DNA of 32,891 bases. Origin: Acidobacteriota bacterium. GTDB taxonomy: Bacteria > Acidobacteriota > Terriglobia > Terriglobales > Acidobacteriaceae. This document shows positions 1,510-25,054 of the stretch, in pieces. Position numbers and translations under genes: made by a program. The stretch is taken from the NCBI GenBank assembly GCA_021818105.1, contig JAKAFB010000035.1, positions 1 through 32,891 on the forward strand, given 5' to 3'. Each line of letters begins with the position of its first letter. Positions within the stretch are counted from its first letter, which is position 1. Under the pieces are notes generated by a model. The model was not told where the DNA came from. It saw nothing but the letters and a program-made list of their open reading frames with translations, and did no database searches.

Positions 1510-2280
1510 CTAATTCACCACTGGCTTGGAACGCGCTTGCGTCTCCTTCGGCGATACTGCTTGTGGCTTCCGGTCAGGAACCGGCCGTTCCATGCCCTGT
1601 GCCTCCTGCGCCATGCGCAGGTGCTGCTCCATCAGGCGGCGTGCATCCTCTGGCTTGTGCGAGCGAATCGCACGGTAAATCTCGCGATGCATCTCCGCAG
1701 ATTCACGCAGATCAATCGCCCGCTCCACGGTCTTGCGGCGTTTGTCATACATCGAAGATGTCACCGTCTCCATGATCGCTGCGAGAATGGGATTGCCCGA
1801 AGCCTGCGCAATAATGCGGTGAAACATCACGTCATGCACCAGGTAGTCGCTGGGGCCTTCAATTGCCGCAAACATCTCGGCAACCTCCTCGGCCAACGCA
1901 GCATGATGTTCCTCCTTGCCGCGCTCTGCAGCCAGTGCGGCCAGATTGCTCTCCAGAATGATGCGCGCCTCAAACATCTGCCATGACTGAAAGCCGTGCA
2001 GGGCGCCCATAAAGCTGAGCGAGGCCTTGCCCAGGTCCGGTGGACCCTCCGCCACAAACGTACCGATCCCGTGGCGGATCTTCATCACGCCCATCGCGGC
2101 CAGGTAGCCGATGCCGGTGCGCAGGCTGGCACGGCTGATCTTGAGGGTGCGTGCCAACTCGCGCTCGGGCGGCAGTTTGTCACCGGGCTGCAGCGTACCA
2201 CTCTCGATCAGAGAACGTACGTGGTTGACCACTTGCATGGTCCGGTGCGTCTCAGGCAGATCCTTTTTTACCCGTGGCAT
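1510..2280 (-). CDS. FadR-subfamily GntR transcriptional regulator, probable uronate/pectin repressor
   Basis: The 256-residue product has an N-terminal winged helix-turn-helix (about residues 11-77) with the GntR pattern KLPPERELARTLKISR and HGIGTFV. An all-helical FCD effector domain spans about 97-222. D150, H154, H198 and H220 match the Asp/His set that binds a metal and the carboxylate ligand in FCD proteins such as UxuR, ExuR and LldR. The ATG at 2280 was chosen because the family fold begins there. In-frame starts at 2307 and 2370 would add residues unlike the family and lack a better ribosome site. It is divergent from the uronate operon, with tandem GGTCNGACC palindromes in the gap, so it probably represses that operon and senses a uronate intermediate. 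The effector is inference. Confidence 0.85.
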   Translation of the reverse strand: MPRVKKDLPETHRTMQVVNHVRSLIESGTLQPGDKLPPERELARTLKISRASLRTGIGYLAAMGVMKIRHGIGTFVAEGPPDLGKASLSFMGALHGFQSWQMFEARIILESNLAALAAERGKEEHHAALAEEVAEMFAAIEGPSDYLVHDVMFHRIIAQASGNPILAAIMETVTSSMYDKRRKTVERAIDLRESAEMHREIYRAIRSHKPEDARRLMEQHLRMAQEAQGMERPVPDRKPQAVSPKETQARSKPVVN

Positions 2281-2405
2281 AGGACGGAGACTTCCCTCTA
2301 AATCCATCGAATGACTAGTAATCACTACGAGAGTAGCACCGATTGCGCCTTTCGGGCACGCAAAAATCAATCAATCTTCATCGAGACAGTTGCGTGTTGT
2401 ATGTG

Positions 2406-2477: not shown

Positions 2478-3869
2478 ATGCTCCTTCATGAAGATCGCCT
2501 GTTTCCTGCCGAGCCCGGAGTACGCCAGATTGCCCGTGAGCTTTACGCGCACGTACGTGCCCTGCCGATTGTGAGCCCTCACGGACATACGCAAGCAGCC
2601 TGGTTTGCCCTGAACGAGCCTTTCCCGGATCCGGCCAAGCTTTTTGTGCAGCCCGATCACTATGTCTATCGGATGCTCTACAGCCAGGGCGTCTCGATGG
2701 ATGATCTTGAGATCGGTAACGCTGTCATGAAGGATCCGCGCAAAGTGTGGCGCCTGTTCGCCAGCCACTACCATCTCTTCCGCGGCACGCCCACGCGCAT
2801 GTGGCTGGACTATGCCTTTGAGGTGCTCTTCGGCCTGTCTGAACGGCTCTCCACCCGGACCGCCGACCTCTACTATGACACCATTGCCGCCAGGCTGCGC
2901 ACGCCGGAGTTCCTGCCTCGCGCGCTCTACGATCGCTTCAATATGGAAGTGCTGGCGACCACGGACTCACCTCTCGACTCACTCGAACATCACAAAGCCA
3001 TCCGCGAGTCCGGCTGGAAGGCGCGCATTCTGCCCACGTTTCGGCCCGATCCGGTGGTGGATCCCGAGTTCGCCGGCTTCTCCGATCGCATCGCCGAGCT
3101 GGGCAAGTTGACGGGCGAGGACACGCCAACATGGAGCGGCTACCTGAATGCTCTGCGCAAGGCGCGCACGCGCTTCCGCGAATTCGGCTGCACGGCCACC
3201 GACCACGGACACCTGACGGCGCAGACCGCCGATCTGTCGAACGCCGAAGCTGAGAAGCTCTACCAGGCTGTGCTTTCTGGAAAGGCCGACGCGGCGCAGC
3301 AGGAGCTTTTCCGTGCGCAAATGCTGACTGAGATGGCCGCGATGAGCGTGGAAGACGGCCTGGTGATGCAAATACATCCCGGCAGCACACGCAACCACAA
3401 TCGCAAAATCTACGAACGCTTTGGGCGCGACACGGGCGCTGACATCCCGCGGCCCACGAATTATGTGGACGCGCTGCGTCCGCTGCTGGACCGCTTTGGC
3501 AACGAGCCGGGGCTGACGATTATTCTTTTCACGCTGGACGAGTCCACCTACAGTCGAGAGCTTGCTCCGCTGGCCGGGCACTACCCTTGCCTGCGGCTCG
3601 GACCGCCGTGGTGGTTCTTTGACAGCCCCGAGGGCATGACGCGCTTCCGCGAAGCTACAACGGAAACCGCGGGCTTCTACAACACGGTGGGCTTCAATGA
3701 CGACACGCGCGCCTTTCTCTCCATCCCTGCGCGCCATGACGTTGCCCGGCGCATGGACTGCGCATTCCTCGCTCGGCTTGTGGCCGAACACCGGCTGGAA
3801 GTCGACGAGGCCATGGAAGTGGCGCATGATTTGGCCTACGGCCTGGCGAAGAAGGCCTATCGCCTGTAA
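2478..3869 (+). CDS. uxaC: uronate isomerase
   Basis: The 463-residue product is a full-length uronate isomerase (E. coli UxaC has 470), a cytosolic enzyme of the amidohydrolase fold. It converts D-galacturonate to D-tagaturonate and D-glucuronate to D-fructuronate. The N-terminal metal-site motif SPHGHT places H35 and H37 where the family has its first two metal or catalytic histidines. The C-terminal half carries the conserved GPPWWFFDSPEGM and VGFNDDTRAFLSIPARHD blocks. GAGGTG at 2461-2466 lies 11 bases before the chosen ATG. It is the first gene of the operon, directly behind the tandem operators. Thirteen bases separate its stop from the transporter start. The function call is secure. 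Confidence 0.95.
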   Translation: MLLHEDRLFPAEPGVRQIARELYAHVRALPIVSPHGHTQAAWFALNEPFPDPAKLFVQPDHYVYRMLYSQGVSMDDLEIGNAVMKDPRKVWRLFASHYHLFRGTPTRMWLDYAFEVLFGLSERLSTRTADLYYDTIAARLRTPEFLPRALYDRFNMEVLATTDSPLDSLEHHKAIRESGWKARILPTFRPDPVVDPEFAGFSDRIAELGKLTGEDTPTWSGYLNALRKARTRFREFGCTATDHGHLTAQTADLSNAEAEKLYQAVLSGKADAAQQELFRAQMLTEMAAMSVEDGLVMQIHPGSTRNHNRKIYERFGRDTGADIPRPTNYVDALRPLLDRFGNEPGLTIILFTLDESTYSRELAPLAGHYPCLRLGPPWWFFDSPEGMTRFREATTETAGFYNTVGFNDDTRAFLSIPARHDVARRMDCAFLARLVAEHRLEVDEAMEVAHDLAYGLAKKAYRL

Positions 3870-3881
3870 GGAGAATGCAGC

Positions 3882-5189
3882 ATGGGTGACCAGCCCTCAT
3901 CTGGAGCGGATGAAATTGTAGACGTGGGGCCCGGTGCACACATCGGCCGCGTGCGCTGGACGATCTGCGCCATGCTGTTTGTCGCCACATCCATCAACTA
4001 CATGGATCGTCAAGTAATCTCAATTTTGAAGCCGACGCTGCAACAAAGCATCGGCCTCACAGAGATCAGCTATGGCTACATCGTTGATGCCTTCCAGATT
4101 GCCTATGCGCTGGGCCTGATTGCAGCGGGACGCTTCGTGGACAAGGTGGGCACACGCATCGGCTACATGGTCATCATGGCCGTTTGGAGTCTATCCGCCA
4201 TGGGCCACGCACTAGCCAACACGGCACTCGAGTTTGGCATTGCGCGCTTCTCGCTGGGTGTGGGCGAGTCCGGCAACTTTCCCGCAGCCATCAAAACGGT
4301 TGCTGAATGGTTCCCGCAGAGCGAGCGCTCACTGGCCACAGGCATCTTCAACTCCGGCGCTAACCTGGGCGCCGTGCTGGCTCCGCTCATTGTGCCGTGG
4401 ATTACGATTCACTACGGATGGCACGCAGCGTTCCTTACAACGGGCATCTTTAGTGCGCTATGGATCTTCTGGTGGTATCGCAACTATCGCAAACCCGCCG
4501 ACCACCCCACGCTCACTGGCGCTGAACTGCGGTATATCTATCAGGAAGCCGCCACACAGATGGGGCCGTCGATGCACTGGCGGCGGCTCATCGGATACCG
4601 CCAGACGTGGGCCTTTTCTCTCGCCAAGTTTCTCACTGACCCTATCTGGTGGTTCTATCTCTTCTGGCTCCCGTCTTACTTTAACGAGCGCTTCCACCTG
4701 GACCTGTCGCATCTCGGCCTGCCGCTCATCATCGTCTACAACGCGTCCGCAGTTGGCAGCATTGGTGGTGGCTGGCTGCCTGCGCCGTTCCGGCGCCTGG
4801 GATTTTCAGCAACACGTGCGCGCCTGAGCGCCATGCTGCTATGCGCGTGCGCTGTGGTGCCCATCTTTGCTGTGAGCCACATTCAGTCGGAGTGGTCAGC
4901 AATCGCGTTGCTGAGTCTGGCCGCAGCCGCGCATCAGGGATGGTCCGCCAACCTATTCACCACAGCGTCCGACATGTTTCCTCGCACGGCGGTGGGTTCA
5001 GTAACTGGCATCGGCGGCATGGCGGGCTCGGCAGGCGGTGCCTTGCTTGCTTTCTACGCCGGTCATATTCTTCAGCTCACGCACAGTTACGCGAGCCTGT
5101 TCGCCATTGCCGGCAGCGCGTATCTTCTCGCACTTCTCGTGCTGTATCTGCTGGCCCCGGGTCTGAGAAAAGTGGAGTTTGCCGCATGA
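3882..5189 (+). CDS. exuT: hexuronate transporter, MFS (ExuT-like)
   Basis: The 435-residue product is a 12-helix major facilitator of the anion:cation symporter group that contains ExuT. It should carry galacturonate or glucuronate across the inner membrane with protons. The first helix region has NYMDRQVISILKPTLQQSIGL, which closely resembles ExuT-type transporters. The glycine-rich GVGESGNFPAAIKTVAEWFP segment after helix 4 is also typical. AAGGAG lies 8 bases before the ATG. Its TGA overlaps the ATG of the next gene (ATGA, 5186-5189), which points to translational coupling. Substrate assignment rests on the operon, which holds uxaC, uxaE and downstream steps. Other aldonates or short oligouronides remain possible. 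Confidence 0.85.
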   Translation: MGDQPSSGADEIVDVGPGAHIGRVRWTICAMLFVATSINYMDRQVISILKPTLQQSIGLTEISYGYIVDAFQIAYALGLIAAGRFVDKVGTRIGYMVIMAVWSLSAMGHALANTALEFGIARFSLGVGESGNFPAAIKTVAEWFPQSERSLATGIFNSGANLGAVLAPLIVPWITIHYGWHAAFLTTGIFSALWIFWWYRNYRKPADHPTLTGAELRYIYQEAATQMGPSMHWRRLIGYRQTWAFSLAKFLTDPIWWFYLFWLPSYFNERFHLDLSHLGLPLIIVYNASAVGSIGGGWLPAPFRRLGFSATRARLSAMLLCACAVVPIFAVSHIQSEWSAIALLSLAAAAHQGWSANLFTTASDMFPRTAVGSVTGIGGMAGSAGGALLAFYAGHILQLTHSYASLFAIAGSAYLLALLVLYLLAPGLRKVEFAA

Positions 5190-6454
5190 GTCTCTATTGC
5201 GCCGTTGGAAGCATTGACACTGATCTCTCTTCGCAGCAGATGCAGAGCCTGCTGGGTGAAAGCCTTGCCCGGTTTGGCGCCCGCAATCGCGTTCTTGCTG
5301 TCCCCCCTGACATCACGCGCCTGCACTCTCGCGCAGGCGAGCTGACGCGCTACGCATGGCAGCACTACGGCGACAAGATGCAGGCCGTTCTTCCCGCGCT
5401 TGGAACACATGTGCCAATGACGCCTGCGCAGGTTGCGCACATGTATGGCGACATGCCGCTTGACCTGTTCCGCGCACACGACTGGCGCAACGATATTGAG
5501 ACTGTGGGCGAAGTGCCCGCTGAGTTCATTCATGAGCAGTCTGAGGGCAAGCTGAACTACACGTGGCCGGCGCAGGTGAATCACCTGATTTCGCGCGGCG
5601 GATTCGACCTGATTCTTTCCATTGGCCAGGTTGTTCCGCATGAAGTTATTGGCATGGCCAACTACAACAAAAACATTCTTGTGGGTACCGGCGGACGCGA
5701 GGGCATCAACCGCAGTCACTATCTGGGCGCGGTCTACGGCATGGAGCGCATCATGGGCCGTGCTGACAATCCTGTCCGCAATGTACTCAACTACGCCTCT
5801 GATCGCTTCCTGCGTCACTTGCCGATTGTGTATGTGCTCACCGTAGTAGGCCGCCGCGATGATGGCGTACTGGCCGTCCGCGGACTCTTCATTGGCGATG
5901 ACTTTGAGTGTTTCCATCGCGCGGCAGAGCTGAGCCTCAAGGTTAATTTCGAGATTGTGGCCGAGCCAATTCGCAGGGCCGTTGTTTATCTCGATCCTGA
6001 CGAGTTCCATTCCACGTGGCTCGGCAACAAGGCTATCTATCGCACGCGCATGGCGCTCGCGGACAACGCGGAGCTGATCATCCTTGCACCAGGTGTAAGA
6101 GAGTTTGGCGAAGACAAGACCATCGACAAGCTGATTCGCAAGTATGGCTATCGCGGCACGCAGGCTACTCTTGCGGCCGTCGAGGCGAACAGCGATATTG
6201 CCGGCGATCTCAGTGCGGCAGCGCACCTGATCCATGGCTCCTCGGAAGGGCGGTTCAGGGTCGTGTGGTGCCCCGGCGGCCTGTGCAAGGAAGAGGTGGA
6301 GGGCGTCGGCTATGAATACGGCGATTTGAACTCCATGCTCAAATGTTACGACCCGCAACGGCTTGCCATGGGCCCCAACGTGGTCGATGGCGAAGATGTG
6401 TTTTTTATTTCCAATCCAGGTTTGGGGCTGTGGGCACACCGCAGCCGTTTATGA
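5186..6454 (+). CDS. LarA-family (DUF2088) nickel-dependent racemase/epimerase homologue
   Basis: The 422-residue product belongs to the lactate racemase LarA superfamily. PPDITR (residues 40-45) matches the DxTR motif. H75 (ALGTH), H152 (VPH), K162 (NYNK) and H178 (NRSH) correspond to LarA H108, H174, K184 and H200. The 152-162-178 spacing equals the 174-184-200 spacing of LarA exactly. In LarA that lysine tethers the nickel-pincer nucleotide and the histidines bind nickel or move the proton and hydride. Characterised homologues include racemases of several 2-hydroxyacids and a D-gluconate 2-epimerase. Here the gene overlaps the transporter by four bases and precedes uxaE by 12. A C2 epimerase acting on an aldonate such as mannonate/gluconate is the best inference. 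No larB, larC or larE is present in the window. An in-frame extension upstream exists, but the coupled ATG is preferred. Confidence 0.8.
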   Translation: MSLYCAVGSIDTDLSSQQMQSLLGESLARFGARNRVLAVPPDITRLHSRAGELTRYAWQHYGDKMQAVLPALGTHVPMTPAQVAHMYGDMPLDLFRAHDWRNDIETVGEVPAEFIHEQSEGKLNYTWPAQVNHLISRGGFDLILSIGQVVPHEVIGMANYNKNILVGTGGREGINRSHYLGAVYGMERIMGRADNPVRNVLNYASDRFLRHLPIVYVLTVVGRRDDGVLAVRGLFIGDDFECFHRAAELSLKVNFEIVAEPIRRAVVYLDPDEFHSTWLGNKAIYRTRMALADNAELIILAPGVREFGEDKTIDKLIRKYGYRGTQATLAAVEANSDIAGDLSAAAHLIHGSSEGRFRVVWCPGGLCKEEVEGVGYEYGDLNSMLKCYDPQRLAMGPNVVDGEDVFFISNPGLGLWAHRSRL

Positions 6455-6466
6455 AATGGAGATGTA

Positions 6467-7738
6467 ATGAAACAAGGCAGTTTGAAGCTCGGTAAATATT
6501 CCGTTGGCACGGGCGACAGGTTTGCGCATCAGGCAAAGACGCAGTTGCAGGCGTGCATCCAAGCTTTGGAACATGGCGTGGAAGTGATTCCTGTATGGAA
6601 CAAGTCCAACCGCGAGCACATGATTATCGGCTCTGAGCCAACCTCAGTGAGGCAGGCAGCGGACGCGGCCGTGAAGGCACTGGGCTGGAAGCACGCATAC
6701 TTTTGCGATGCAGACCACATCACCATCAAAACCGTGGACCGCTTTTTGAGTGCCTGTGATTTCTACACGATTGATGTGGCGGATTACATTGGCGAAGCTG
6801 CTGCGGAGGATGATATTGATGCCTTTGCCAAGCGCCATGCCGATCTCACTGGGCGCCTGCGGTTAGATGGCATAGAGGATGCAATCGAGATTACGCCGGA
6901 GATTTTACGCCAAACTGCCACGAAGTATCTCACGGCAGTAAAAAAAGCTGGAGAGGTGTACCGGGCCATCCTTGGCACAAAGGGCGAGGGTAACTTCATT
7001 CCGGAAGTGTCAATGGACGAGACAGACAGCGCACAGACGCCAGTGGATCTGCTGCTCATCCTTGCCGCAATTGTGGATGAAGGTATTCCAGTGCAGACCA
7101 TCGCGCCCAAGTTCAGTGGCCGCTTTAACAAAGGTGTGGACTATGTCGGTGATGTGGCGCAGTTCGAGCGCGAGTTTGCGCTGGACGTTGCTGCCATTGC
7201 GTATGCAGTGAAGTGCTTTGGCCTTCCAGAGAACCTGAAGCTCAGCGTGCACTCAGGCAGCGACAAGTTCTCCATTTATCCCGCCATTCATGCAACGATG
7301 AAACGCTTCAACGCCGGTGTGCACCTGAAGACCGCCGGAACCACCTGGCTGGAAGAACTGATCGGCCTTGCCGAATCAGGCGGCGACGGACTTGCTCTTG
7401 CCAAGGAAATTTATGCTGAGGCTTATGCACATCGTGAAGATCTTTGCGCGCCGTACTCCACGGTAATCGATATCGACCCTGCGAAGTTGCCCAGACCTGT
7501 TGAAGTCAACACGTGGGCATCAGAGCAGTACACCGCAGCACTGCGCCATGTGCGCGGGTCGTCAGCTTATAACAGCAGTCTGCGTCAGTTGTTGCATGTT
7601 GGCTTCAAGGTGGCGGCAAAAATGGGCCAACGCTACCTTGATCTGCTGGAGGAAAATGAACAGGTCATTGCGCGCAACGTCACCCAGAATTTGTTCGAGC
7701 GGCACATTGCGCCGGTCTTTCTAAGTCGCAATGCTTGA
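6467..7738 (+). CDS. uxaE: tagaturonate epimerase
   Basis: The 423-residue product resembles the UxaE family, first described from Thermotoga, which interconverts D-tagaturonate and D-fructuronate. This lets galacturonate enter the fructuronate/mannonate branch without the altronate enzymes UxaA and UxaB. Recognisable segments are NKSNREHMIIGSEPTSVRQAA near the N-terminus, FCDADHITIKTVDRF, NFIPEVSMDETDSAQTP, APKFSGRFNKGVDYVGD and LSVHSGSDKFSIYP. The Asp, His and Glu residues in these segments are candidate metal ligands. GGAG lies five bases before the ATG. The gene is tightly packed between the LarA homologue and the SDR gene, 26 bases from the latter. No uxaA or uxaB gene occurs in the window, which fits the epimerase route. 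Confidence 0.88.
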   Translation: MKQGSLKLGKYSVGTGDRFAHQAKTQLQACIQALEHGVEVIPVWNKSNREHMIIGSEPTSVRQAADAAVKALGWKHAYFCDADHITIKTVDRFLSACDFYTIDVADYIGEAAAEDDIDAFAKRHADLTGRLRLDGIEDAIEITPEILRQTATKYLTAVKKAGEVYRAILGTKGEGNFIPEVSMDETDSAQTPVDLLLILAAIVDEGIPVQTIAPKFSGRFNKGVDYVGDVAQFEREFALDVAAIAYAVKCFGLPENLKLSVHSGSDKFSIYPAIHATMKRFNAGVHLKTAGTTWLEELIGLAESGGDGLALAKEIYAEAYAHREDLCAPYSTVIDIDPAKLPRPVEVNTWASEQYTAALRHVRGSSAYNSSLRQLLHVGFKVAAKMGQRYLDLLEENEQVIARNVTQNLFERHIAPVFLSRNA

Positions 7739-7764: not shown

Positions 7765-8541
7765 ATGAGTTCGAACCCCATGAGCCTTCGTGAGAAGGTT
7801 GTGGTCATTACCGGCGGAACATCCGGCATTGGCCGCGCCATGAGCCTTGGCCTCGCCGAGGTGGGAGCAGACGTGATTGCCACAGCGCGCCGTCAGCAAC
7901 AGGTGGACGAAACCGCCACTGAAATTGAAGCGCGCGGACGCAAGACCTTGCGGATTATCTCGGACGTGTGCAACCGCTCCTCGCTTGAAGCACTGCTCGA
8001 TGCGGCTCTCAAGAGCTTCGGGAAGGTGGACATCCTCATCAACTGCGCGGGCCGCATCAAACGTACCCCTACGCTGGCGATGGCCGAGGAGGAGTGGAAT
8101 GCAATCCTCGACACCAACCTGACAGGTACACTCCGCGCCTGCCAGGTGTTTGGCCAGCACATGCTGGATCGCGGTTATGGCCGCATCATCAACATTGCCT
8201 CGCTGAATAGCTTCGTGGCACTCAGCGAAGTCGCCGCCTATGCGGCAAGCAAGGCTGCCGTGGTTTCACTCACGCGTTCGCTGGCAGTTGAGTGGTCAAA
8301 AAACGGTGTCACGGTGAACGCAATCGCTCCGGGCGTATTTCGTACTGAGTTAAACGCCGCGCTGCTGGACAGCACACCGCGTGGCCAAGAACTGCTGATG
8401 CGCACGCCGATGGGCCGCTTCGGCAAGACAGAAGAGCTGATTGGTGCGGCAATTTATCTTGCTTCAGATAGCGCATCGTTCGTCACAGGCCAGACGCTCG
8501 TAGTCGACGGTGGATTCCTTGCCAGCGGCGTCAATCAGTAG
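7765..8541 (+). CDS. SDR-family oxidoreductase, probable fructuronate reductase (YjmF type) or KduD-like
   Basis: This 258-residue classical short-chain dehydrogenase has the cofactor motif TGGTSGIG (residues 16-23), NCAG near 93-96 and the catalytic triad S146, Y159 and K163. GGAGG stands four bases before the chosen ATG; a start at 7735 would add ten residues without support. It closes the operon directly after uxaE. B. subtilis uses an SDR (YjmF) as D-mannonate oxidoreductase, and the UxaE product fructuronate needs exactly this step. NAD(P)H-dependent reduction of fructuronate to D-mannonate is therefore the preferred reading. KduD (2-dehydro-3-deoxy-gluconate 5-dehydrogenase), which serves unsaturated uronates, is the main alternative, but no kduI or pectate lyase gene is present in the window. 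Confidence 0.75.
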   Translation: MSSNPMSLREKVVVITGGTSGIGRAMSLGLAEVGADVIATARRQQQVDETATEIEARGRKTLRIISDVCNRSSLEALLDAALKSFGKVDILINCAGRIKRTPTLAMAEEEWNAILDTNLTGTLRACQVFGQHMLDRGYGRIINIASLNSFVALSEVAAYAASKAAVVSLTRSLAVEWSKNGVTVNAIAPGVFRTELNAALLDSTPRGQELLMRTPMGRFGKTEELIGAAIYLASDSASFVTGQTLVVDGGFLASGVNQ

Positions 8542-8612: not shown

Positions 8613-9884
8613 TTAGTGCAGTGTTAGGCTTGCCCCAGCGGTCTTCAGCATGGACTCGCCCTCGGTGGCTCGCACGGTGAAGTTGTGCCCTGCCACGTCA
8701 GCATAGCCAATCGTCATGCCCTTGCGCGCGCTGATGTTGACGTTGCGAAGTACAACCTTGCGAACAGGGGCCTCCGGCAGGCCAACGATTGCACCGGCAT
8801 CTACGCTGTCCGTCGCGGTCACATTCTCCAGCATGATGTCATGAAAGTGCGGTGTCAATCGCGTTACGGGCGCGGCCTTTGCATCTTCCGCAGGCAGAAT
8901 GCGCGGGTAGTATTCACTGATGATGAGCGCATGCTTCACATCCTTCATCTGGATGTCGCGGAAGACGAGGTGACTCACGTCATTGCCGCGATCACGATTC
9001 GCCTTCACGCGGATACCGTTGTCTGTGTCTTCAAACGTGATTCGCTCCGCAGTGATGTTCCTCGCTCCACCTGCGATTTCACTGCCCACGGACAAGCCGT
9101 GGCCATGCATGAAGTGACAGTCTGTAATCGTGATGTCGCGGCTGGGTTTGTCAGGCCCCGGTGAGTTGATGGCCCCGGACTTGATCGCAATGTCATCATC
9201 GCCTACGTCGGCGTATACGTGATTGATCGTTACATGCGAAGAAGAGAATGGATCGATGGCATCCGTGTTTGGCGAGTGTGCCGGCGCCAGTACCCTGATG
9301 TTACGAATAACGACATCGTCGGAGTAGTACGGCACCAGTTGCCACATGGGCGAGTTCTGGATGGTTATACCTTCCACGCGCACATGCTGACAGTGGTCAA
9401 AGACAACCAGTCGCGGCCGCGTATGTTCTGAGCCAAGAATACCGGCATCCTTATAGGCGCGCGCCTCCTTCCACCAGCTTTCGCCATTCCCATCAATCAC
9501 GCCTTCACCCGTGATGGCCACGTTGTCCGCGTGGTTCGCGCTGACCAATGATTGCCGGCCCGGCGCACGGAATTCAGTCTTCGCAGGATAGTCGGCATGA
9601 TCTGCCGATCCAAGCAGAGTCGCGCCCTTGTCCAGGTGGAGTGTGATGTTGCTCTTGAGCACAATGGGAGCGCTAAGGTATGTGCCGGCAGACAGCGTGA
9701 CTGTACCACCGCCTTTGGACGCGCAGGCATCAATTGCCAGTTGGAGCGCGGCGGTATCCTTGGTGATTCCATCACCCTTCGCGCCGTAGTTGCGTGCGTC
9801 GCAGGTGTTGGCCGCAAAGAGTGCTGTGCTTGCCGCGGCTGCGACGGTCAGAATCGCAAGCAGATTTCTTGTCCATGTCTTCAT
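8613..9884 (-). CDS. GH28 polygalacturonase (exported)
   Basis: The 423-residue product begins with a signal peptide (residues 1-25, cleavage near LFAAN). A parallel beta-helix GH28 domain follows, opening with RNYGAKGDG. All classical GH28 catalytic blocks are present: NTD (206-208), DDD (229-231), GHG (261-263) and the IRVK pair R292/K294. It should hydrolyse alpha-1,4 galacturonan in the periplasm or outside the cell. The ATG at 9884 was chosen. A GTG three codons earlier (9893) sits five bases behind GAGGAG and is an equally good start. The gene follows the KDG kinase on the same strand with a 139-base gap. They may share the regulated promoter at 11249-11278. Exo versus endo action cannot be told from motifs. 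Confidence 0.88.
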   Translation of the reverse strand: MKTWTRNLLAILTVAAAASTALFAANTCDARNYGAKGDGITKDTAALQLAIDACASKGGGTVTLSAGTYLSAPIVLKSNITLHLDKGATLLGSADHADYPAKTEFRAPGRQSLVSANHADNVAITGEGVIDGNGESWWKEARAYKDAGILGSEHTRPRLVVFDHCQHVRVEGITIQNSPMWQLVPYYSDDVVIRNIRVLAPAHSPNTDAIDPFSSSHVTINHVYADVGDDDIAIKSGAINSPGPDKPSRDITITDCHFMHGHGLSVGSEIAGGARNITAERITFEDTDNGIRVKANRDRGNDVSHLVFRDIQMKDVKHALIISEYYPRILPAEDAKAAPVTRLTPHFHDIMLENVTATDSVDAGAIVGLPEAPVRKVVLRNVNISARKGMTIGYADVAGHNFTVRATEGESMLKTAGASLTLH

Positions 9885-10023
9885 TCGGGTCACAAACACT
9901 CCTCGCACCACAATGTTTGGGTTCCTGACCTTCAGCCGTTGCGAATACTTCAGGCATGGCTGATGAGCTTGCCGCTTTGCGTCCTGGGAGTGGACATGCC
10001 TTCGTGGCTCACGCTTACCTGCA

Positions 10024-11106
10024 TTAGCGTTGAATACGCGCCGATCCTCCAGTAGCGAAGGCTTGCACTTGCTCCAGCGTGGCCATGGTTGTGTCGCCCG
10101 GGAAGCTTGTGAGCAGCGCGCCGTGCGCCCATCCAAGCTTGATGGCCTCTGCCGGCGTCTCGCCGTTGAGCAACCCGTAGAAGAAACCCGAGGCAAAGCC
10201 GTCTCCTCCACCCACGCGGTCATACACCGTCAGCTCGCAGGTGGGCGCCTGGATAGTTTCGCCATTCACCCACGCCACTGCGCTCCAACTGTGGTGGTTA
10301 GTGGAGTGCACCTCACGCAGTGTCGTCGCTACAATCTTGACGTGCGGAAAGCGGTCAACGACGCTCTCAATCATCGAGAAGAACGAGCCAGGATCGAGCT
10401 TGAACTTGGCGGCCACTTCCGGCCCGGCAAACCCAAGACCCTTTTGGAGGTCTTCTTCGTTGCCCACGAGAACGTCGACATTCTCAACAATGGCGCCTAG
10501 AATCTTCTGCGCGCGCTTCGCGCCGCCGCAGCTCTTCCAAAGCTTTTCGCGGTAGTTCAAGTCAAAGGAGCAGACAGCTCCGGCCTTGCGCGCGGCACGC
10601 ATGGCCTCGATCACGAGCTCTGCCGTCGTCTCAGACAGCGCGGCGAAGATTCCACCGCTGTGAAACCAACGAACGCCTTCGCCAAAGATGGCCTTCCAAT
10701 CAAAGTCGCCCGGCTTGAGCAGCGCAGCAGCTTCATTACAGCGGTTGTAAAAGACAACGGGCGCGCGTACGCCAAAGCCACGGTCGCTGTACACGGCTGC
10801 CATGTTGGGCCCACGCACGCCGTCATGCTCAAAACGGCGATAGAAGGGCCGTACTCCCATGGCACGCACTCGCTCGGCGATGAGGTCGCCAATGGGATAG
10901 GACACCATGGCCGACGCAATGCCTGTGCGCATACCGAAGCAATCCGCAAGGTTCGCTGCCACATTGAACTCGCCGCCGCTCACGTGAAGATCGAAATGCG
11001 AGGCCTTACGAAAGGGGATCATGCCGGGGTCGATCCGGTGAACCAGTGCGCCAAGCGACAAAAGGTCCAGCGTGCCTTGCGGGGGAATTCTGAAGCCCAG
11101 TTTCAT
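10024..11106 (-). CDS. kdgK: 2-keto-3-deoxygluconate (KDG) kinase, PfkB family
   Basis: The 360-residue product is a PfkB-family sugar kinase. The N-terminal substrate lid region has HVSGGEFNVAANLADCFG, and the C-terminal signature DRVGGGDGFASGFFYGLLNG contains the anion hole and catalytic Asp. SFDLNYREKLW in the middle is usual for KDG kinases. It would phosphorylate KDG to KDPG in the cytosol, the last uronate-specific step before the Entner-Doudoroff aldolase. AAGGAG lies nine bases before the ATG. The promoter holds a GGTCAGACC operator between its -35 and -10, tying it to the uronate operon. Substrate assignment is by family resemblance plus context; fructokinase-like relatives are the alternative. 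Confidence 0.85.
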   Translation of the reverse strand: MKLGFRIPPQGTLDLLSLGALVHRIDPGMIPFRKASHFDLHVSGGEFNVAANLADCFGMRTGIASAMVSYPIGDLIAERVRAMGVRPFYRRFEHDGVRGPNMAAVYSDRGFGVRAPVVFYNRCNEAAALLKPGDFDWKAIFGEGVRWFHSGGIFAALSETTAELVIEAMRAARKAGAVCSFDLNYREKLWKSCGGAKRAQKILGAIVENVDVLVGNEEDLQKGLGFAGPEVAAKFKLDPGSFFSMIESVVDRFPHVKIVATTLREVHSTNHHSWSAVAWVNGETIQAPTCELTVYDRVGGGDGFASGFFYGLLNGETPAEAIKLGWAHGALLTSFPGDTTMATLEQVQAFATGGSARIQR

Positions 11107-11520
11107 TGCGTCATTCTCCTTCTATCGCATGTTTGCTGCATCGCGCATAGCCGCGCGGGTGTGAGTCGTGGCTATATCTTCGACTGGCTCTGGAGGTGCC
11201 ATGCCACGCCTTTCACTTCCTCACTCACGCGGCTCTCATTCGCAAATGATTGTACATGGCAAGAGGTCAGACCATCAATATGCTTTTTTCAATTGCATTG
11301 ATGGACACAAGCGGCCGCTACTTCTCCGCACAGCTTCCAGCAGGTACATCAATGCATAGCTCGGCGACCATAATTTGCGCGTTCCACTGGACGGAAGCAT
11401 TGCGTGGTTGGCGTCGGACCGCGCTCTTCCTGTAAAGTAAGCTCGTGTAGTGGTCAGTCCTCTATCGTAGCATTCGGGCCTTGTGTACACGACTCCTGCC
11501 GCATACTTCGGAGACCTTCA
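11107..11520. other. intergenic region between kdgK and the GH28-CE8 gene
   Basis: This 414-base divergent gap carries the kdgK promoter and operator at 11249-11278. A degraded second copy of the palindrome, GGTCAGTCC at 11452-11460 (one mismatch), lies 60 bases before the pectinase ATG. No gene or RNA is supported in the remainder. Confidence 0.55.
11249..11278 (-). promoter_or_regulatory. kdgK promoter with FadR-type operator in its spacer
   Basis: On the minus strand a TTGATG -35 (11273-11278) and a TACAAT -10 (11249-11254) are 18 bases apart. The palindrome GGTCAGACC (11265-11273; AGGTCAGACCA at 11264-11274) fills the spacer and touches the -35. This is the same motif as at uxaC. A bound repressor would block polymerase. 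The predicted leader to kdgK is about 135 bases. The same site may also act on the divergent pectinase gene, for which no clear promoter was identified. Confidence 0.7.
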
Positions 11521-13884
11521 ATGCATCTTCGTTCAGCTCTCTCCCTCTGTGCAGCGCTTCTGCTCCTGGCAACATTGGCAGCGCATGCCCAGGACATACG
11601 CACCGTCACTGTGCCGCACGTTCCGCCTGCATGCGTGACGCTCCATGCGCGCATTACTGCAGGCAATGGACAGATCACGGAACGCGACGAGCGTGCACTG
11701 GACACCACTCGTATTCAAAGCGCTCTCGATCATTGTCCCGCCAGCCACGCGGTTGTGCTTCGGGCACGCGGTAGCAGGAATGTCTTTCTGACGGGCCCGC
11801 TCACCCTACGCTCAGGCGTCACGCTGGTCGTCAGCGCCAACACTGCACTGGTTGCTTCGCGCGATCCGCGCATCTACGACATCACGCCCGGCAGTTGCGG
11901 AGTGGTGAGTGAGAACGGCCATGGCTGCAAGCCTCTGTTCTCCGGGAACGGCGTCGAGGACGCAGCCATCATGGGCGAGGGCTCCATTGACGGGCGCGGA
12001 GGAGAAACCTTGCTCGGCCAAAACAAAACATGGTGGGATCTGGCGCACCAGGCCAAGCTTACGGACCAGTATCAGAGCGTGCCCTGGCTCATTGTTCTGC
12101 ACCATGCGAGGAATTTCACGCTTTACAACATCACACTGCGCAACTCACCTGGCTTTCACGTGGCAGTGAACCAGACGGATGGCTTTACCGCGTGGGGAGT
12201 GAAGATCATGACGCCCAAGACCGCGCGGAACACAGACGGCATTGACCCAGGCACGTCGCGGAACGTGACCATCACGCACTGTTACATCCATGCGGGGGAC
12301 GACAATGTTGCCGTCAAATCTGGCCCGGACGGACCGTCTTCCCACATCTCTATCGTGCACAACCATTTCTACACGGGGCACGGGATGTCCATTGGGAGCG
12401 GTACCAGCGGCGGCGTGGATCACATGCTGGTGGATGACCTGACGATAGACAGTGCAGATAATGGCATCCGCATCAAGTCTGACCGCAGCCGCGGCGGGCG
12501 CGTGCAAGGCATTGTCTACCGCAATGTGTGTATGCGCAACGTGAAGAATCCCCTACTGTTCACACCATTGTACACAACGTTCAGTGGCAATCTATTGCCC
12601 GTTTATAGTGACATCACGCTCACCGATGTGCACATTCTGACCGCAGGAACCTACACCTTTCTCGGCCTTGATGCACAACACAAGCTTGGACTTTCGCTGG
12701 ACAATGTGTTCGCGGATGGTCTGAATAACTCCAAACAGTTGAGCAGTAATGCGCAGATCACTATTGGCCCGCGGCGTGGCAATCTGGAGCCTCGGGGCGA
12801 GGGCGTGACCGTGACAGATATACAGGGAGAGCTGCCCGGCAGGCCGCTTGCTTGCGATGCGCGCTTTGTCCCATTCCCTGCGCTAAGCACGGCACCGGAG
12901 ATGGCGAGCACCGCCCCGCCGGAGGACAAGGCCCTTTACGTTGCCGCTGATGGTACTGGCGAATATTCCACCATTCAGCGCGCTCTGGATGCCGCTCCTG
13001 CCAGTGGCGCTCTGATTCTTGTTGCACCGGGCACCTATCGCGAGGTGCTCACCATCAACAAGCCAAACATCCATCTGCGCGGCTCTTCGCCTGATGCAAG
13101 CAGGACCGTTGTGGTGAATGACCGCAGCGCAGGCGCAAACGGGGGAACGTTGCATTCAGCCACAGTCAACATCAACGCTGACTACTTCTTCGCAGAAGAT
13201 ATTACCTTTGAGAATGACTTCAACCGCACCCATCCCCAGTTGCCTGCGGGGTCGCAAGCGCTGGCGCTGCTCGTCACGGGAGACCGTGATGTCTTCCACA
13301 ATGTGCGCCTTCTGGGCAATCAGGACACCGTGTATGTGGGGAGTCGCAATTGCTCACCGGACGGCATGCCATGTATACCCGCGCGCCAGTACTTTTCTAA
13401 TTGCTACATTGCAGGCAATGTCGATTTCATTTTTGGTGATGGCAAGGCTGCCTTTGACCACTGTGAATTGCACAGCACCGCCCACAACGGTGGCTTCATC
13501 ACCGCGCAGGCTAAGCACTATCCGGACGAGGACTCAGGCTTCGTGTTCGACCACTGCAAGCTCACGGCGGATAAGGACGTAACCGGCAATGTGTATCTTG
13601 GCCGTCCGTGGAGGCCGTATGCAGAGGTAGTCTTTCTCAACACTGAAATGGACGCACACATTGCTCCGGCGGGATGGCGCGAGTGGCATCCGGGCGAAAC
13701 ACGTTCACTGGACACGGCGTACTATGCCGAGTTCAACTCGTCTGGGCCCGGCGCGCATCCTGGCAAACGTGATCCCCATACGCACTTTCTTGACGCGCAA
13801 CAGGTCAGGCAGTTCGAGCCTGCGGTGTTCTTGCGCGGCACTGACAACTGGAATCCAATTGTTCCGCTGCAGTCAGTGAAGTAG
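11521..13884 (+). CDS. bifunctional GH28 polygalacturonase - CE8 pectin methylesterase, secreted
   Basis: The 787-residue product joins two pectin-degrading domains behind a signal peptide (residues 1-24). The GH28 domain (about 35-445) has NTD 237-239, GDD 259-261, GHG 286-288 and R317/K319, all intact. After a short linker (about 450-470) comes a CE8 pectinesterase domain (about 471-785). Its Q579, Q601-D602, D635 (GNVDFIFGD) and R695 (LGRPW) match the known catalytic set, and the 22-residue Q-Q spacing agrees with plant pectinesterases. A Cys-containing insert lies between D602 and D635. The CE8 part would remove methyl groups so that the GH28 part can cut the freed galacturonan. GGAG lies seven bases before the chosen ATG; the upstream extension does not look coding. 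Confidence 0.92.
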   Translation: MHLRSALSLCAALLLLATLAAHAQDIRTVTVPHVPPACVTLHARITAGNGQITERDERALDTTRIQSALDHCPASHAVVLRARGSRNVFLTGPLTLRSGVTLVVSANTALVASRDPRIYDITPGSCGVVSENGHGCKPLFSGNGVEDAAIMGEGSIDGRGGETLLGQNKTWWDLAHQAKLTDQYQSVPWLIVLHHARNFTLYNITLRNSPGFHVAVNQTDGFTAWGVKIMTPKTARNTDGIDPGTSRNVTITHCYIHAGDDNVAVKSGPDGPSSHISIVHNHFYTGHGMSIGSGTSGGVDHMLVDDLTIDSADNGIRIKSDRSRGGRVQGIVYRNVCMRNVKNPLLFTPLYTTFSGNLLPVYSDITLTDVHILTAGTYTFLGLDAQHKLGLSLDNVFADGLNNSKQLSSNAQITIGPRRGNLEPRGEGVTVTDIQGELPGRPLACDARFVPFPALSTAPEMASTAPPEDKALYVAADGTGEYSTIQRALDAAPASGALILVAPGTYREVLTINKPNIHLRGSSPDASRTVVVNDRSAGANGGTLHSATVNINADYFFAEDITFENDFNRTHPQLPAGSQALALLVTGDRDVFHNVRLLGNQDTVYVGSRNCSPDGMPCIPARQYFSNCYIAGNVDFIFGDGKAAFDHCELHSTAHNGGFITAQAKHYPDEDSGFVFDHCKLTADKDVTGNVYLGRPWRPYAEVVFLNTEMDAHIAPAGWREWHPGETRSLDTAYYAEFNSSGPGAHPGKRDPHTHFLDAQQVRQFEPAVFLRGTDNWNPIVPLQSVK

Positions 13885-22652: not shown

Positions 22653-23831
22653 TCAGTCTGCCGCCACGCCTTCGGCCGAGTGCCCATCCGTCCAAGGCGG
22701 CAGCAGCTTAACCAGCACCCAAAGGATGGCCAGTGGGAGCAGCGTAAGTCCCACAGCAACGAGCAGGCCTTCCTTCGTAACCAGGCTCATTTTGTAGGTT
22801 GTGTATCCGAGAAAGCTCTTCGAGAAGAGCTGGCCACCGATCACCACGTTCCAGCGCATGGCGAAGATACCAATCAATGTCAGCGCGCCTGCCACGGCAT
22901 ACATGCGCTTGCGCGCGATCTCTGGCAACTTGACAAGTTGGGTAATGGCCAGCAGCAAGAGTGGCACGAGCGTACCAAAGATAATCTGCACTACAATCTG
23001 CGAAAAATAGAGCTTGGTGTGAACCATGAAGTCCAGCGTGCGGAAGGACTCGTCAGCCTCATAAATGCGGTGAATCAGGTCCAGCATCTCCAGGCTGAAG
23101 TCGATGATGAAGGTGTAGAACAGGTACATCGCAATCGTATCCACACACTTCATATCGATGGTCTTGCCGCGCAGTTTCGTCACAGCCATATAGAGCACCA
23201 TGACGCAGGCAATGCCAGAGACCATCGCCGAGAAGATAAAGACCACCGGCATGAGCGGCGATGACCACCACGGATTGGCCTTGATGGATCCGAAGATGAA
23301 GCCTACATAGCCGTGGAGGAGAAATGCCGAAGGAATGCCCACCAGCGTGACAATCCAGCTCACCTTCTCATCGATGTGCAGGGCGCGCTCGCTGATGTTA
23401 TTCGAACCCAGCGTCATGATCTTGTAGATCACGCGCACCAGCCCCTTGGACTTTTGTGACATCAGCACAATTTCGCGGCGGTAATCGAGCCAGATCTCAA
23501 AGGTGAGCACGGCCATCAGATACCACAGGTACACGTAGCCGAACATGGCCATGGCCGACGTGCTGTGCGGCGTGAAATACATCTCCGGCGAGCGCTCCGG
23601 ATGCCCCAGGTGAAACTGCAGGGGCAGAGGCGCCACAATGAGAAATGACAGCGCCGTGAGCAATGCCAGCCGGTAGGTTGGCTTGACCGCCGTGACATTG
23701 AAGACGCGCTCCAGAGAGGCCAGGATGAACGCGCCAGCGACCAGCCCTGTGATATAGGGATAGAGAACGATCAACACACTCCAGTAGAGGTTGATCTCAT
23801 TCGGATACATGTAACCTTCAACACCGCTCAT
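22653..23831 (-). CDS. NrfD/PsrC-family quinone-interacting membrane subunit
   Basis: The 392-residue product is a multi-helix membrane protein of the NrfD/PsrC family. These proteins anchor redox complexes and exchange electrons with the quinone pool. Visible features are the INLYWSVLIVLYPYITGLVAGAF first helix, the PLQFHLGHPERSPEMYFTPHSTSAM segment typical of the family near the quinone site, and further hydrophobic helices. It follows the ferredoxin subunit gene by 15 bases and is preceded by AAGGAG. The operon order cytochrome - FeS - NrfD resembles Tmc- and Qrc-type complexes. No molybdopterin or other catalytic subunit accompanies it in this window. Confidence 0.88.
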   Translation of the reverse strand: MSGVEGYMYPNEINLYWSVLIVLYPYITGLVAGAFILASLERVFNVTAVKPTYRLALLTALSFLIVAPLPLQFHLGHPERSPEMYFTPHSTSAMAMFGYVYLWYLMAVLTFEIWLDYRREIVLMSQKSKGLVRVIYKIMTLGSNNISERALHIDEKVSWIVTLVGIPSAFLLHGYVGFIFGSIKANPWWSSPLMPVVFIFSAMVSGIACVMVLYMAVTKLRGKTIDMKCVDTIAMYLFYTFIIDFSLEMLDLIHRIYEADESFRTLDFMVHTKLYFSQIVVQIIFGTLVPLLLLAITQLVKLPEIARKRMYAVAGALTLIGIFAMRWNVVIGGQLFSKSFLGYTTYKMSLVTKEGLLVAVGLTLLPLAILWVLVKLLPPWTDGHSAEGVAAD

Positions 23832-23846
23832 ATTTCCCCCGTCTCC

Positions 23847-24581
23847 TTATCGCACCGATCCATCCAGCCCGTTGTAGTAGACCTTTGCGCCCGTGGCCAT
23901 TTGCGGCTTGAGAATCTGCACGGCGTGGGTCCGCAGGAATTCGTGGATGGGATCATTGGGGTTCTTCAGATCGACTAGTTGGCGTGCGCCTGTGGGGCAG
24001 GCCTCGCAACACGCGGTTGTAAGGCCCTTCGTGATGCGGTGGTAGCACAGCGTACATTTGTCGGCGACTTCCTTCTGCGGATGGATGTAACGGCATCCAT
24101 ACGGGCAGGCCTGCACGCAATACGCACAACCCAGGCAGTATTTCTGGTCCACGAGGACCACGCCATCCGGCGTCACAAATGTTGCGCCCACAGGGCACAC
24201 CTGCGTGCAGGGCGAATCCGCGCAGTGATTGCAGAGCTTGGGAACGAAGAAGTACTTGCCTTCGTCCTCCTTCTCCACCGGCGGAAATCCTTCCTTGCCG
24301 CCATCCGGTGAGATCACTGTGGGATTGGTCATGTCCTCGTCTTCCACGTGATAGCGCTCCACCCACGTACGGAAGAAGCCATCAGGGACGTCGTTCTCCT
24401 CCTTGCAAGCGCGCACGCAGTTGCCGCAGCCGATGCACTTGGGGATATCGATGAGCATGCTCCACCAGTGCTCGGACATAGTGTAGTTGGGTGCGGCCTC
24501 CGGAGTGCCGGCCATCACATGTTCCCATGCAATGGCCGCCGCGGGCAGCAGAACCAGCATCTGGCGTCGAGTGATTTTCAT
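23847..24581 (-). CDS. four-cluster ferredoxin subunit (DmsB/NrfC/HybA type), Tat-exported
   Basis: The 244-residue product starts with a twin-arginine signal (TRRQMLVLLPAAAIAW). Sixteen cysteines in four ferredoxin-like groups follow: C49-52-55-59, C117-120-125-129, C149-152-155-159 and C176-179-(191/192)-195. This is the usual pattern for four [4Fe-4S] clusters in the DmsB/NrfC family. It should wire the tetraheme cytochrome to the NrfD membrane subunit on the periplasmic side. Its ATG overlaps the cytochrome stop by four bases (ATGA), so the two are translationally coupled. The direction of electron flow cannot be told from sequence. Confidence 0.92.
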   Translation of the reverse strand: MKITRRQMLVLLPAAAIAWEHVMAGTPEAAPNYTMSEHWWSMLIDIPKCIGCGNCVRACKEENDVPDGFFRTWVERYHVEDEDMTNPTVISPDGGKEGFPPVEKEDEGKYFFVPKLCNHCADSPCTQVCPVGATFVTPDGVVLVDQKYCLGCAYCVQACPYGCRYIHPQKEVADKCTLCYHRITKGLTTACCEACPTGARQLVDLKNPNDPIHEFLRTHAVQILKPQMATGAKVYYNGLDGSVR

Positions 24582-25054
24582 TTCGCACCTCCGGACGTCA
24601 TAGCCGGACTGTGCGGCTGGTGACAGGTTTCACAGGGCAGCCCGGTGGAGTGCTCCGCGGCATGCACCTGGGGAAAGTTTTTGGGGCGCGCGGCGCTGTA
24701 CTCGTGGCAGCGCACGCACAGCGTCGCCGTGTCCGGCTTGGTTGGCGTCAAGCTTGCGGGGTCTTCAGCATGCTTCTGCAGCGCGCCGTGACACGCCTCG
24801 CAGTTCACATGGGCGTGCTTGCCGTCCTTCTTCACGTTGGCAACGTCCACGTGGCATGTTTCGCAGGCTTCGTGTCCCGCAAAGTGAAGCGGGTGTGCAG
24901 CGATCTCGTCGATCGATGCCGCCCGGTAATGCCCATACTTGCCGAAGCTCTTGGGGACAACGAAACCTCGTATCACCCAAAAGGCGATAAACAAGAAAAC
25001 GAATATCGCTAAAAATCGAAAGAGATGTCCTGCATCCTTGAAGACGCCCATCAT
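24578..25054 (-). CDS. membrane-anchored tetraheme cytochrome c
   Basis: The 158-residue product has one N-terminal membrane anchor (about residues 11-33) and four CxxCH heme c sites: C64-H68, C85-H89, C113-H117 and C141-H145. The spacing and added histidines (HxxH near 54-61, 80-82, 131-135) fit a low-potential multiheme fold with bis-His ligation. It is the first gene of a four-gene operon that continues with ferredoxin, NrfD and a DUF2339-like protein. Two adjacent ATGs (25054 and 25051) follow a GGGGG ribosome-site candidate. An FNR-type box lies 55 bases upstream. The electron partner is unknown. Confidence 0.88.
   Translation of the reverse strand: MMGVFKDAGHLFRFLAIFVFLFIAFWVIRGFVVPKSFGKYGHYRAASIDEIAAHPLHFAGHEACETCHVDVANVKKDGKHAHVNCEACHGALQKHAEDPASLTPTKPDTATLCVRCHEYSAARPKNFPQVHAAEHSTGLPCETCHQPHSPAMTSGGAK

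Follow-up and report, generated by a model that had tools for sequence, protein, structure and literature searches.

A LarA group-18 protein in an acidobacterial galacturonate operon is a probable D-mannonate/D-gluconate 2-epimerase that may work with an unrecognised hexonate kinase

The window, the whole stretch of DNA that was analysed, comprises 32,891 nucleotides of contig JAKAFB010000035.1 from a member of the Acidobacteriaceae (phylum Acidobacteriota; assembly GCA_021818105.1). Positions 5186-6454 on the forward strand hold an open reading frame encoding 422 amino acids, here called larAH, the product of which resembles the nickel-dependent lactate racemase LarA. larAH is the third gene of a forward-strand operon in the order uxaC, exuT-like, larAH, uxaE and a short-chain dehydrogenase/reductase (SDR) gene, and a fadR-like regulator gene lies divergent on the reverse strand. 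Beyond the operon, the opposite strand encodes a GH28 polygalacturonase and a PfkB-family kinase that we call HexK. The genes are:

1510..2370, reverse strand: FadR/GntR-FCD regulator, divergent from the operon (PF00392, PF07729)
2478..3869, forward strand: uxaC, uronate isomerase (PRK02925, 586 bits against a cut-off of 387)
3882..5189, forward strand: exuT-like transporter of the major facilitator superfamily (MFS) (PF07690; best NCBIfam model TIGR00893, 238 bits, under its cut-off of 395)
5186..6454, forward strand: larAH, LarA group-18 homologue, putative nickel-pincer nucleotide (NPN)-dependent D-mannonate/D-gluconate 2-epimerase (NF052594; invariant NPN and catalytic residues; E153, V154, A346 and H347)
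6467..7738, forward strand: uxaE, tagaturonate-fructuronate epimerase (PF16257, 178 bits against 27; no NCBIfam match)
7765..8541, forward strand: SDR reductase, likely a fructuronate reductase (or gluconate 5-dehydrogenase) (sequence, model scan and PDB matches)
8613..10223, reverse strand: GH28 polygalacturonase (PF00295)
10024..11106, reverse strand: HexK, PfkB-family kinase, proposed hexonate (gluconate or mannonate) kinase (PF00294, distribution, linkage and tree)

The larAH start overlaps the exuT stop (ATGA, 5186-5189) and uxaE starts 12 bases past the larAH stop, which confirms the initial annotation of larAH as a gene coupled to the hexuronate transporter and preceding uxaE. For the SDR gene the ATG at 7765, behind GGAGG, is favoured over the mechanical start at 7735, and the true start of the GH28 gene is probably later than its mechanical start, which overlaps HexK. 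No dehydratase was found among the eight scanned genes, regulator through kinase.

Model scores assign the larAH product to LarA group 18. The protein scored 640.4 bits (E 1e-192) with NCBIfam NF052594, the model for LarA group 18 that is titled "nickel-dependent putative hexonate epimerase" and has a cut-off of 500, and 27.2 bits with Pfam Lar_N PF09861 (cut-off 23.3); given the E value of 1e-192, chance resemblance to LarA was rejected. When the whole host genome was searched (3.64 Mb in 136 contigs, 97.9% complete), larAH was the sole match to NF052594 at E ≤ 0.001. With uxaC and uxaE as neighbours, this score upholds the placing of a LarA-type homologue inside a galacturonate operon.

Residues were mapped by aligning a profile of 19 group-18 sequences to PDB 4nar (E 4.3e-47) and to 2yjg, the lactate racemase apoprotein (E 0.0019), the alignments being read by eye. 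H75, H152, K162 and H178 fall on the corresponding histidine and lysine residues of 2yjg, in agreement with their earlier identification as the nickel/NPN residues, and R45, the NPN-binding arginine, is aligned as well. The spacings of 10 and 16 between residues 152, 162 and 178 are those of LarA H174-K184-H200 (numbering of PMC11770544). The same text gives the specificity signature of D-gluconate 2-epimerases (GntE) as E, V, A and H in place of LarA F175, F176, W358 and T359; the larAH product has this signature as E153 and V154, placed by the alignment to lactate racemase, and A346 and H347, placed through 4nar only. All 19 group-18 sequences share R45, H75, H152, E153, V154, K162, H178, W278, K282, A346 and H347.

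The host also carries the genes for making the cofactor. The lar maturation genes, named beforehand as a refuting test if missing, are all present over cut-off (larE 318 bits against 150, larC1 204 against 90, larB 293 against 175) and lie together on one contig (C1). As to exits from mannonate and gluconate, UxuA (PF03786) had no match in the host genome. ManD, an enolase-superfamily mannonate dehydratase unrelated to UxuA, is encoded on contig C130 (715 bits against 550), where its gene adjoins those of another SDR and another PfkB kinase. A short-type 6-phosphogluconate dehydrogenase passes two cut-offs (457 bits against 271 and 378 against 297). Given ManD on one side and HexK with this dehydrogenase on the other, the host can be drawn with two exits, one by way of a dehydratase and one by way of 6-phosphogluconate. 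Since ManD is present, larAH can only supplement mannonate dehydratase in the host and a bypass is not forced; of the earlier suggestion that the enzyme "bypasses or supplements" that step, the supplement stands for the host and the bypass does not, although it is plausible in other genomes (below).

The initial annotation had also called for a search for uxuA, which was not found, and for a gluconate dehydratase, for which there is one candidate. PF00920 had only two matches in the host. By model, one is a YjhG/YagF-type D-xylonate dehydratase (1152 bits against 808), its gene next to that of an MFS transporter on contig C97 of the host genome G000 (3.7 kb; locus L051); by score and sequence, the second is probably IlvD, hence an Edd route is disfavoured in the host. 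Four other genomes of the genus that were searched hold PF00920 genes of the YjhG/YagF class (80-86% identical). Across six YjhG/YagF neighbourhoods the queries matched nothing further except, weakly and at 23%, an MFS gene in L051. A gluconate exit through this dehydratase may be an alternative.

We then compared 150 genomes drawn from the family, of which 51 have a group-18 protein over the NF052594 cut-off and 99 do not. LarC was found in 44 of the 51. Five members (loci L086, L088, L090, L095 and L096, of genomes G148, G031, G140, G095 and G128) form a second group-18 branch, about 44% identical, with larE and larB right behind larAH; LarC1 (TIGR00299) was not found in these five genomes, which are listed as 98-100% complete, and this raises the question of NPN assembly without a recognisable LarC in that branch. 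Full-length UxuA, by our own threshold of 335 bits or more, occurs in 24 of the 150 genomes (17 of 51 with group 18, seven of 99 without), and a further 19 pass the lower Pfam UxuA cut-off with weaker, split matches. ManD is over its cut-off in 30 of 51 against 26 of 99, and gluconokinase (GntK) is found in 38 of 51 against 44 of 99. Fifteen of the 51 group-18 genomes have neither full-length UxuA nor ManD over cut-off; 12 of these have GntK, and in two (G117 and G124) both dehydratases have weaker relatives. A bypass of mannonate dehydratase is plausible in these 15.

The closest relative found (G144, 99% complete) fits a bypass. It keeps the uxaC-exuT-larAH-uxaE-SDR cluster, HexK and, 2.9 kb from HexK, a full-length 6-phosphogluconate dehydrogenase (Gnd), and neither UxuA, nor ManD over cut-off, nor GntK was found in it. 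At the locus equivalent to C130 its SDR and oxidoreductase genes lie side by side with no ManD between. G144 also carries a YjhG/YagF-type dehydratase, which could be another exit.

The linkage of larAH to uronate genes is conserved in relatives. Surroundings were taken for 40 of the 51 loci with a group-18 gene, some of which are truncated where a contig stops; a gene counted as a neighbour if tblastn matched it within 6 kb at no less than 45% identity. The neighbours were SDR (26 loci), uxaE (22), uxaC (21), exuT (20), larB (7), larE (6), gntK (5), HexK (4) and Gnd (1); when weak matches under the 45% floor were included, SDR rose to 28 of 40. All five gntK neighbours exceed the TIGR01313 gluconokinase cut-off. 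Culturable relatives that share the operon are Terracidiphilus gabretensis (L110) and Edaphobacter lichenicola (L126). A scan of named genomes covered the best 80 loci of at least 579 relatives: 32 acidobacterial and 48 from Bacteroidota, Planctomycetota, Ignavibacteria, Verrucomicrobia and others, with seven of the 80 shared with the set of 40. Among these 80 listed loci, SDR was a neighbour in 22 and a PfkB kinase in seven (58 and 28 without the floor). Within 6 kb, the 48 listed non-acidobacterial loci have full-length Gnd in 35, and uxaE and a uxaC match of any strength in 14 each; the 35 Gnd neighbours are 60-100% identical to the query, itself from one of these relatives (L127), and the one Gnd scanned scored 793 bits against 427.

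Two variants of the neighbourhood were seen. L061, L076, L097 (on the same contig as L119), L107 and L150 are uxaC-exuT-larAH-SDR operons; uxaE had no match in the stretches taken from them, the rest of those genomes not having been searched. In L140, L146, L166 and L177, genes for a pyrophosphate (PPi)-phosphofructokinase-like and a HAD-like protein lie within two or three genes before larAH, where other loci have the PfkB kinase. The PPi-phosphofructokinase-like gene of L140, the only one scanned, scored 568 bits against 273, and the HAD-like gene was scanned from L135 only. This pair is perhaps a third kinase solution.

The gene in the host that might act on gluconate is HexK. It falls under the cut-off of each model of 2-keto-3-deoxygluconate (KDG) kinase (NF041332, 132 bits against 440; NF040938, 81 against 400; NF052444, 32 against 400), and its best model, NF041633 for an aldolase/kinase fusion, gave 246 against 700. 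The PfkB paralogue beside ManD misses the same KDG-kinase cut-offs, so the family models cannot tell the two kinases apart. A tree splits HexK from the ManD-linked kinase (clade support 93/89, with a warning of long branches from the tool). Fifteen of the 51 group-18 genomes hold a close relative of HexK, at 72-100% identity and well separated from the paralogues at 39-49%.

HexK and GntK exclude each other to a large degree. Twelve of the 51 genomes have HexK only, 35 GntK only, three both and one neither (Fisher p 3.5e-8); either kinase is thus present in 50 of 51, the remaining genome (G058) being 83% complete. The control, the ManD-linked paralogue against GntK, gave four-cell counts of 33/12/5/1 and p = 1. 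The Fisher value is weakened by the shared ancestry of the genomes. On a LarAH tree of 47 rows HexK changes eight times, and in the only five supported independent pairs GntK goes opposite to HexK in three or four and the same way in none (p 0.125, in a test unable to reach significance on this tree). Full-length Gnd is associated positively with HexK (11 of the 15 genomes with HexK, 11 of the 36 without, p 0.012) and negatively with GntK (12 of the 38 with GntK, 10 of the 13 without, p 0.008); the host, with HexK and no full-length Gnd, runs contrary to that association. The exchange is suggestive, although not conclusive, of a replacement of gluconokinase by HexK.

Linkage adds to this picture. 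In all three genomes that hold both, HexK and GntK adjoin each other (L184-L186), and in G124 larAH, HexK and Gnd follow in order on one strand. Among the listed loci of Ignavibacteria and Verrucomicrobia, four (L147, L168, L170 and L179) have a 72-73% identical kinase directly before larAH. HexK lies within about 4 kb of larAH in only six of its 15 genomes and elsewhere in nine, where the query matches alongside are GntK (three loci) and a piece of uxaE (L186) and nothing else. At 31-37% identity, the kinases of Bacteroidota and Planctomycetota (21 listed loci) fall into a deep clade of their own, and any functional kinship to HexK is at most putative. In two Bacteroidota loci (L148 and L159) one PfkB kinase adjoins a 2-keto-3-deoxy-6-phosphogluconate (KDPG) aldolase gene and another precedes larAH and Gnd; the member of the KDPG-aldolase cluster from L127 scored 356 bits against 275. 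The role of KDG kinase for the operon was considered for HexK and is less likely, the ManD-side paralogue, unrelated to the GntK distribution, being the better candidate. Distribution and linkage suggest that HexK is an unrecognised hexonate kinase.

We put at roughly two in three the probability that the larAH product is a nickel-pincer D-mannonate/D-gluconate 2-epimerase in a pectin-sugar operon. UxaC would isomerise pectin-derived D-galacturonate, UxaE would epimerise the product and the SDR would then reduce it to D-mannonate. LarAH would epimerise D-mannonate to D-gluconate by transient hydride removal at C2, with H75 and H152 as the acid/base pair and the NPN held by R45, K162 and H178, a mechanism drawn by analogy with LarA. 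HexK would phosphorylate the gluconate and the short-type 6-phosphogluconate dehydrogenase would oxidise the product, a branch parallel to the ManD route in the host. More tentatively, and at somewhat less than even odds, a group-18 LarA and a PfkB hexonate kinase, a non-homologous replacement of gluconokinase, would form a nickel-dependent shunt from uronates to 6-phosphogluconate that replaces mannonate dehydratase altogether in some lineages. Acidobacteriota, Ignavibacteriota and Verrucomicrobiota would have this shunt, and so would Bacteroidota and Planctomycetota, where the PfkB kinase is more distant. Both estimates allow for the weak neighbour matches that fall under the 45% floor and for the presence of HexK near larAH in only six of 15 genomes.

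Several observations weigh against these proposals. In the host, neither GntK (TIGR01313; 22 of 31 first-look candidates scored) nor full-length Gnd was found, 6-phosphogluconate dehydrogenase being of the short type only. Full-length Gnd occurs in only 22 of the 51 group-18 genomes (12 of the 38 with GntK), and it is rarely near larAH in acidobacterial loci (one of 40, and one of the 32 listed named loci). Genomes with group 18 have UxuA or ManD more often (36 of 51) than those without it (33 of 99), and this enrichment disfavours a general replacement of mannonate dehydratase. UxuA lies beside larAH in two listed non-acidobacterial loci (L133 and L166), which would fit the reverse direction. 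The Michaelis constants (KM) of known epimerases for mannonate are high (GntE1 120 mM, GntE2 17 mM; PMC7583248), so the true substrate may be a compound other than mannonate, and the available portions of the literature on LarA groups yielded no assay of a group-18 member.

The KM values also bear on an order of steps that we regard as unlikely, in which LarAH acts first and turns D-fructuronate (5-keto-D-mannonate) into 5-keto-D-gluconate, which the SDR, as a gluconate 5-dehydrogenase, would convert to gluconate. The chemistry permits it: fructuronate is a 2-hydroxy acid, and its C2 epimer is 5-keto-gluconate. The best PDB match of the SDR is named gluconate 5-dehydrogenase (the five best include two so named, 5u9p and 1vl8), and the second SDR beside ManD means that the two might differ in product. 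However, the operon SDR scored below cut-off against the models of KduD, mannonate oxidoreductase and gluconate 5-dehydrogenase, and NCBIfam is likewise unable to separate these for the second SDR; the known GntEs do act on mannonate, and no gene pattern here distinguishes the two orders.

Less probable still is phosphorylation of mannonate by HexK followed by epimerisation of 6-phosphomannonate to 6-phosphogluconate by LarAH, as in Lactobacillus suebicus, where both activities were shown in extracts and the genes were unidentified (PMC6978723). A PfkB kinase, LarAH and Gnd do occur together in G124, and with the more distant kinase in listed Bacteroidota loci. HexK, however, alternates with GntK, and mannonate is reportedly no substrate of the E. 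coli GntK (cited in the same paper), so the shared substrate should be gluconate; moreover, the enzymes that carry the GntE residue signature act on the free acid. We give as little weight to a mainly reverse flux, from gluconate or outside aldonates to mannonate for ManD or UxuA: it draws on the ManD of the host and its missing GntK, the UxuA neighbours of L133 and L166 and the association of UxuA or ManD with group 18, but the host has HexK and the short 6-phosphogluconate dehydrogenase, G144 keeps cluster, HexK and Gnd with no ManD at the syntenic place, and, epimerases being reversible, the question is one of flux and not of a different enzyme.

The proposal of a D-mannonate/D-gluconate 2-epimerase has precedents. 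Mannonate-to-gluconate activity of LarA groups 19 and 20 was shown in 2020, and group 18 was predicted to be a hexonate epimerase (PMC7583248). As reported in PMC6978723, Rodionova et al. (2012) proposed gntE and gntK as a link in Thermotoga maritima and noted gntE homologues in Lactobacillus, Acidobacterium and Terriglobus. The mannonate/gluconate pair of the initial annotation remains the likeliest by genome comparison and by its hexonate-epimerase family, while the idea was already in print. The new part is the HexK/GntK exchange; interest also attaches to the genomes in which no mannonate dehydratase was recognised. PfkB was unmentioned in the accessible parts of PMC7583248 and PMC6978723, and limited literature searches on PfkB with gluconokinase, pectin or LarA, and on Acidobacteria with galacturonate, nickel or racemase, gave nothing relevant.

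The nearest known counterpart is GntE2 of T. maritima (LarA group 20; PDB 4nar according to PMC7583248), which shares the LarA family (E 4.3e-47 by profile) and a co-regulated locus with uxaE, uxaD, gntK and gnd. It differs in its LarA group, NF052594 finding T. maritima only below cut-off, in a loop that reads H-E-S and not H-E-V, and in having gntK, whereas GntK was not found in the host genome, which has a PfkB kinase nearby instead. GntE1 of Corynebacterium glutamicum (group 19), set beside larAH by description only, is likewise a D-gluconate 2-epimerase in a uronic-acid context but belongs to a separate group and has a very high KM for mannonate (same source). The L. suebicus isomerase/phosphoketolase hybrid route also links mannonate to 6-phosphogluconate in galacturonate catabolism, but phosphorylates mannonate first (PMC6978723). 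Lactate racemase LarA of L. plantarum shares the NPN-binding and catalytic residues and their spacing, but has F, F, W and T at the specificity positions where the larAH product has E, V, A and H (PMC11770544).

Pectin ranks among the major polymers of plants, and soils commonly harbour Acidobacteriota. If the shunt exists, part of pectin turnover would depend on nickel, and carbon would enter the oxidative pentose-phosphate pathway (giving NAD(P)H and pentose phosphate) and not only the split into pyruvate and glyceraldehyde-phosphate. The naming of some PfkB kinases that resemble KDG kinases would be corrected, and the L. suebicus steps that lack assigned genes would gain candidates.

Elsewhere in the window, a single reading frame at 11404-13884 combines a GH28 domain (residues 137-410) with a pectinesterase domain (512-812). 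Three reverse-strand genes at 22653-25054 encode an NrfD-type membrane protein, a 4Fe-4S protein and a multihaem-cytochrome-like protein; nothing evident ties them to the operon.

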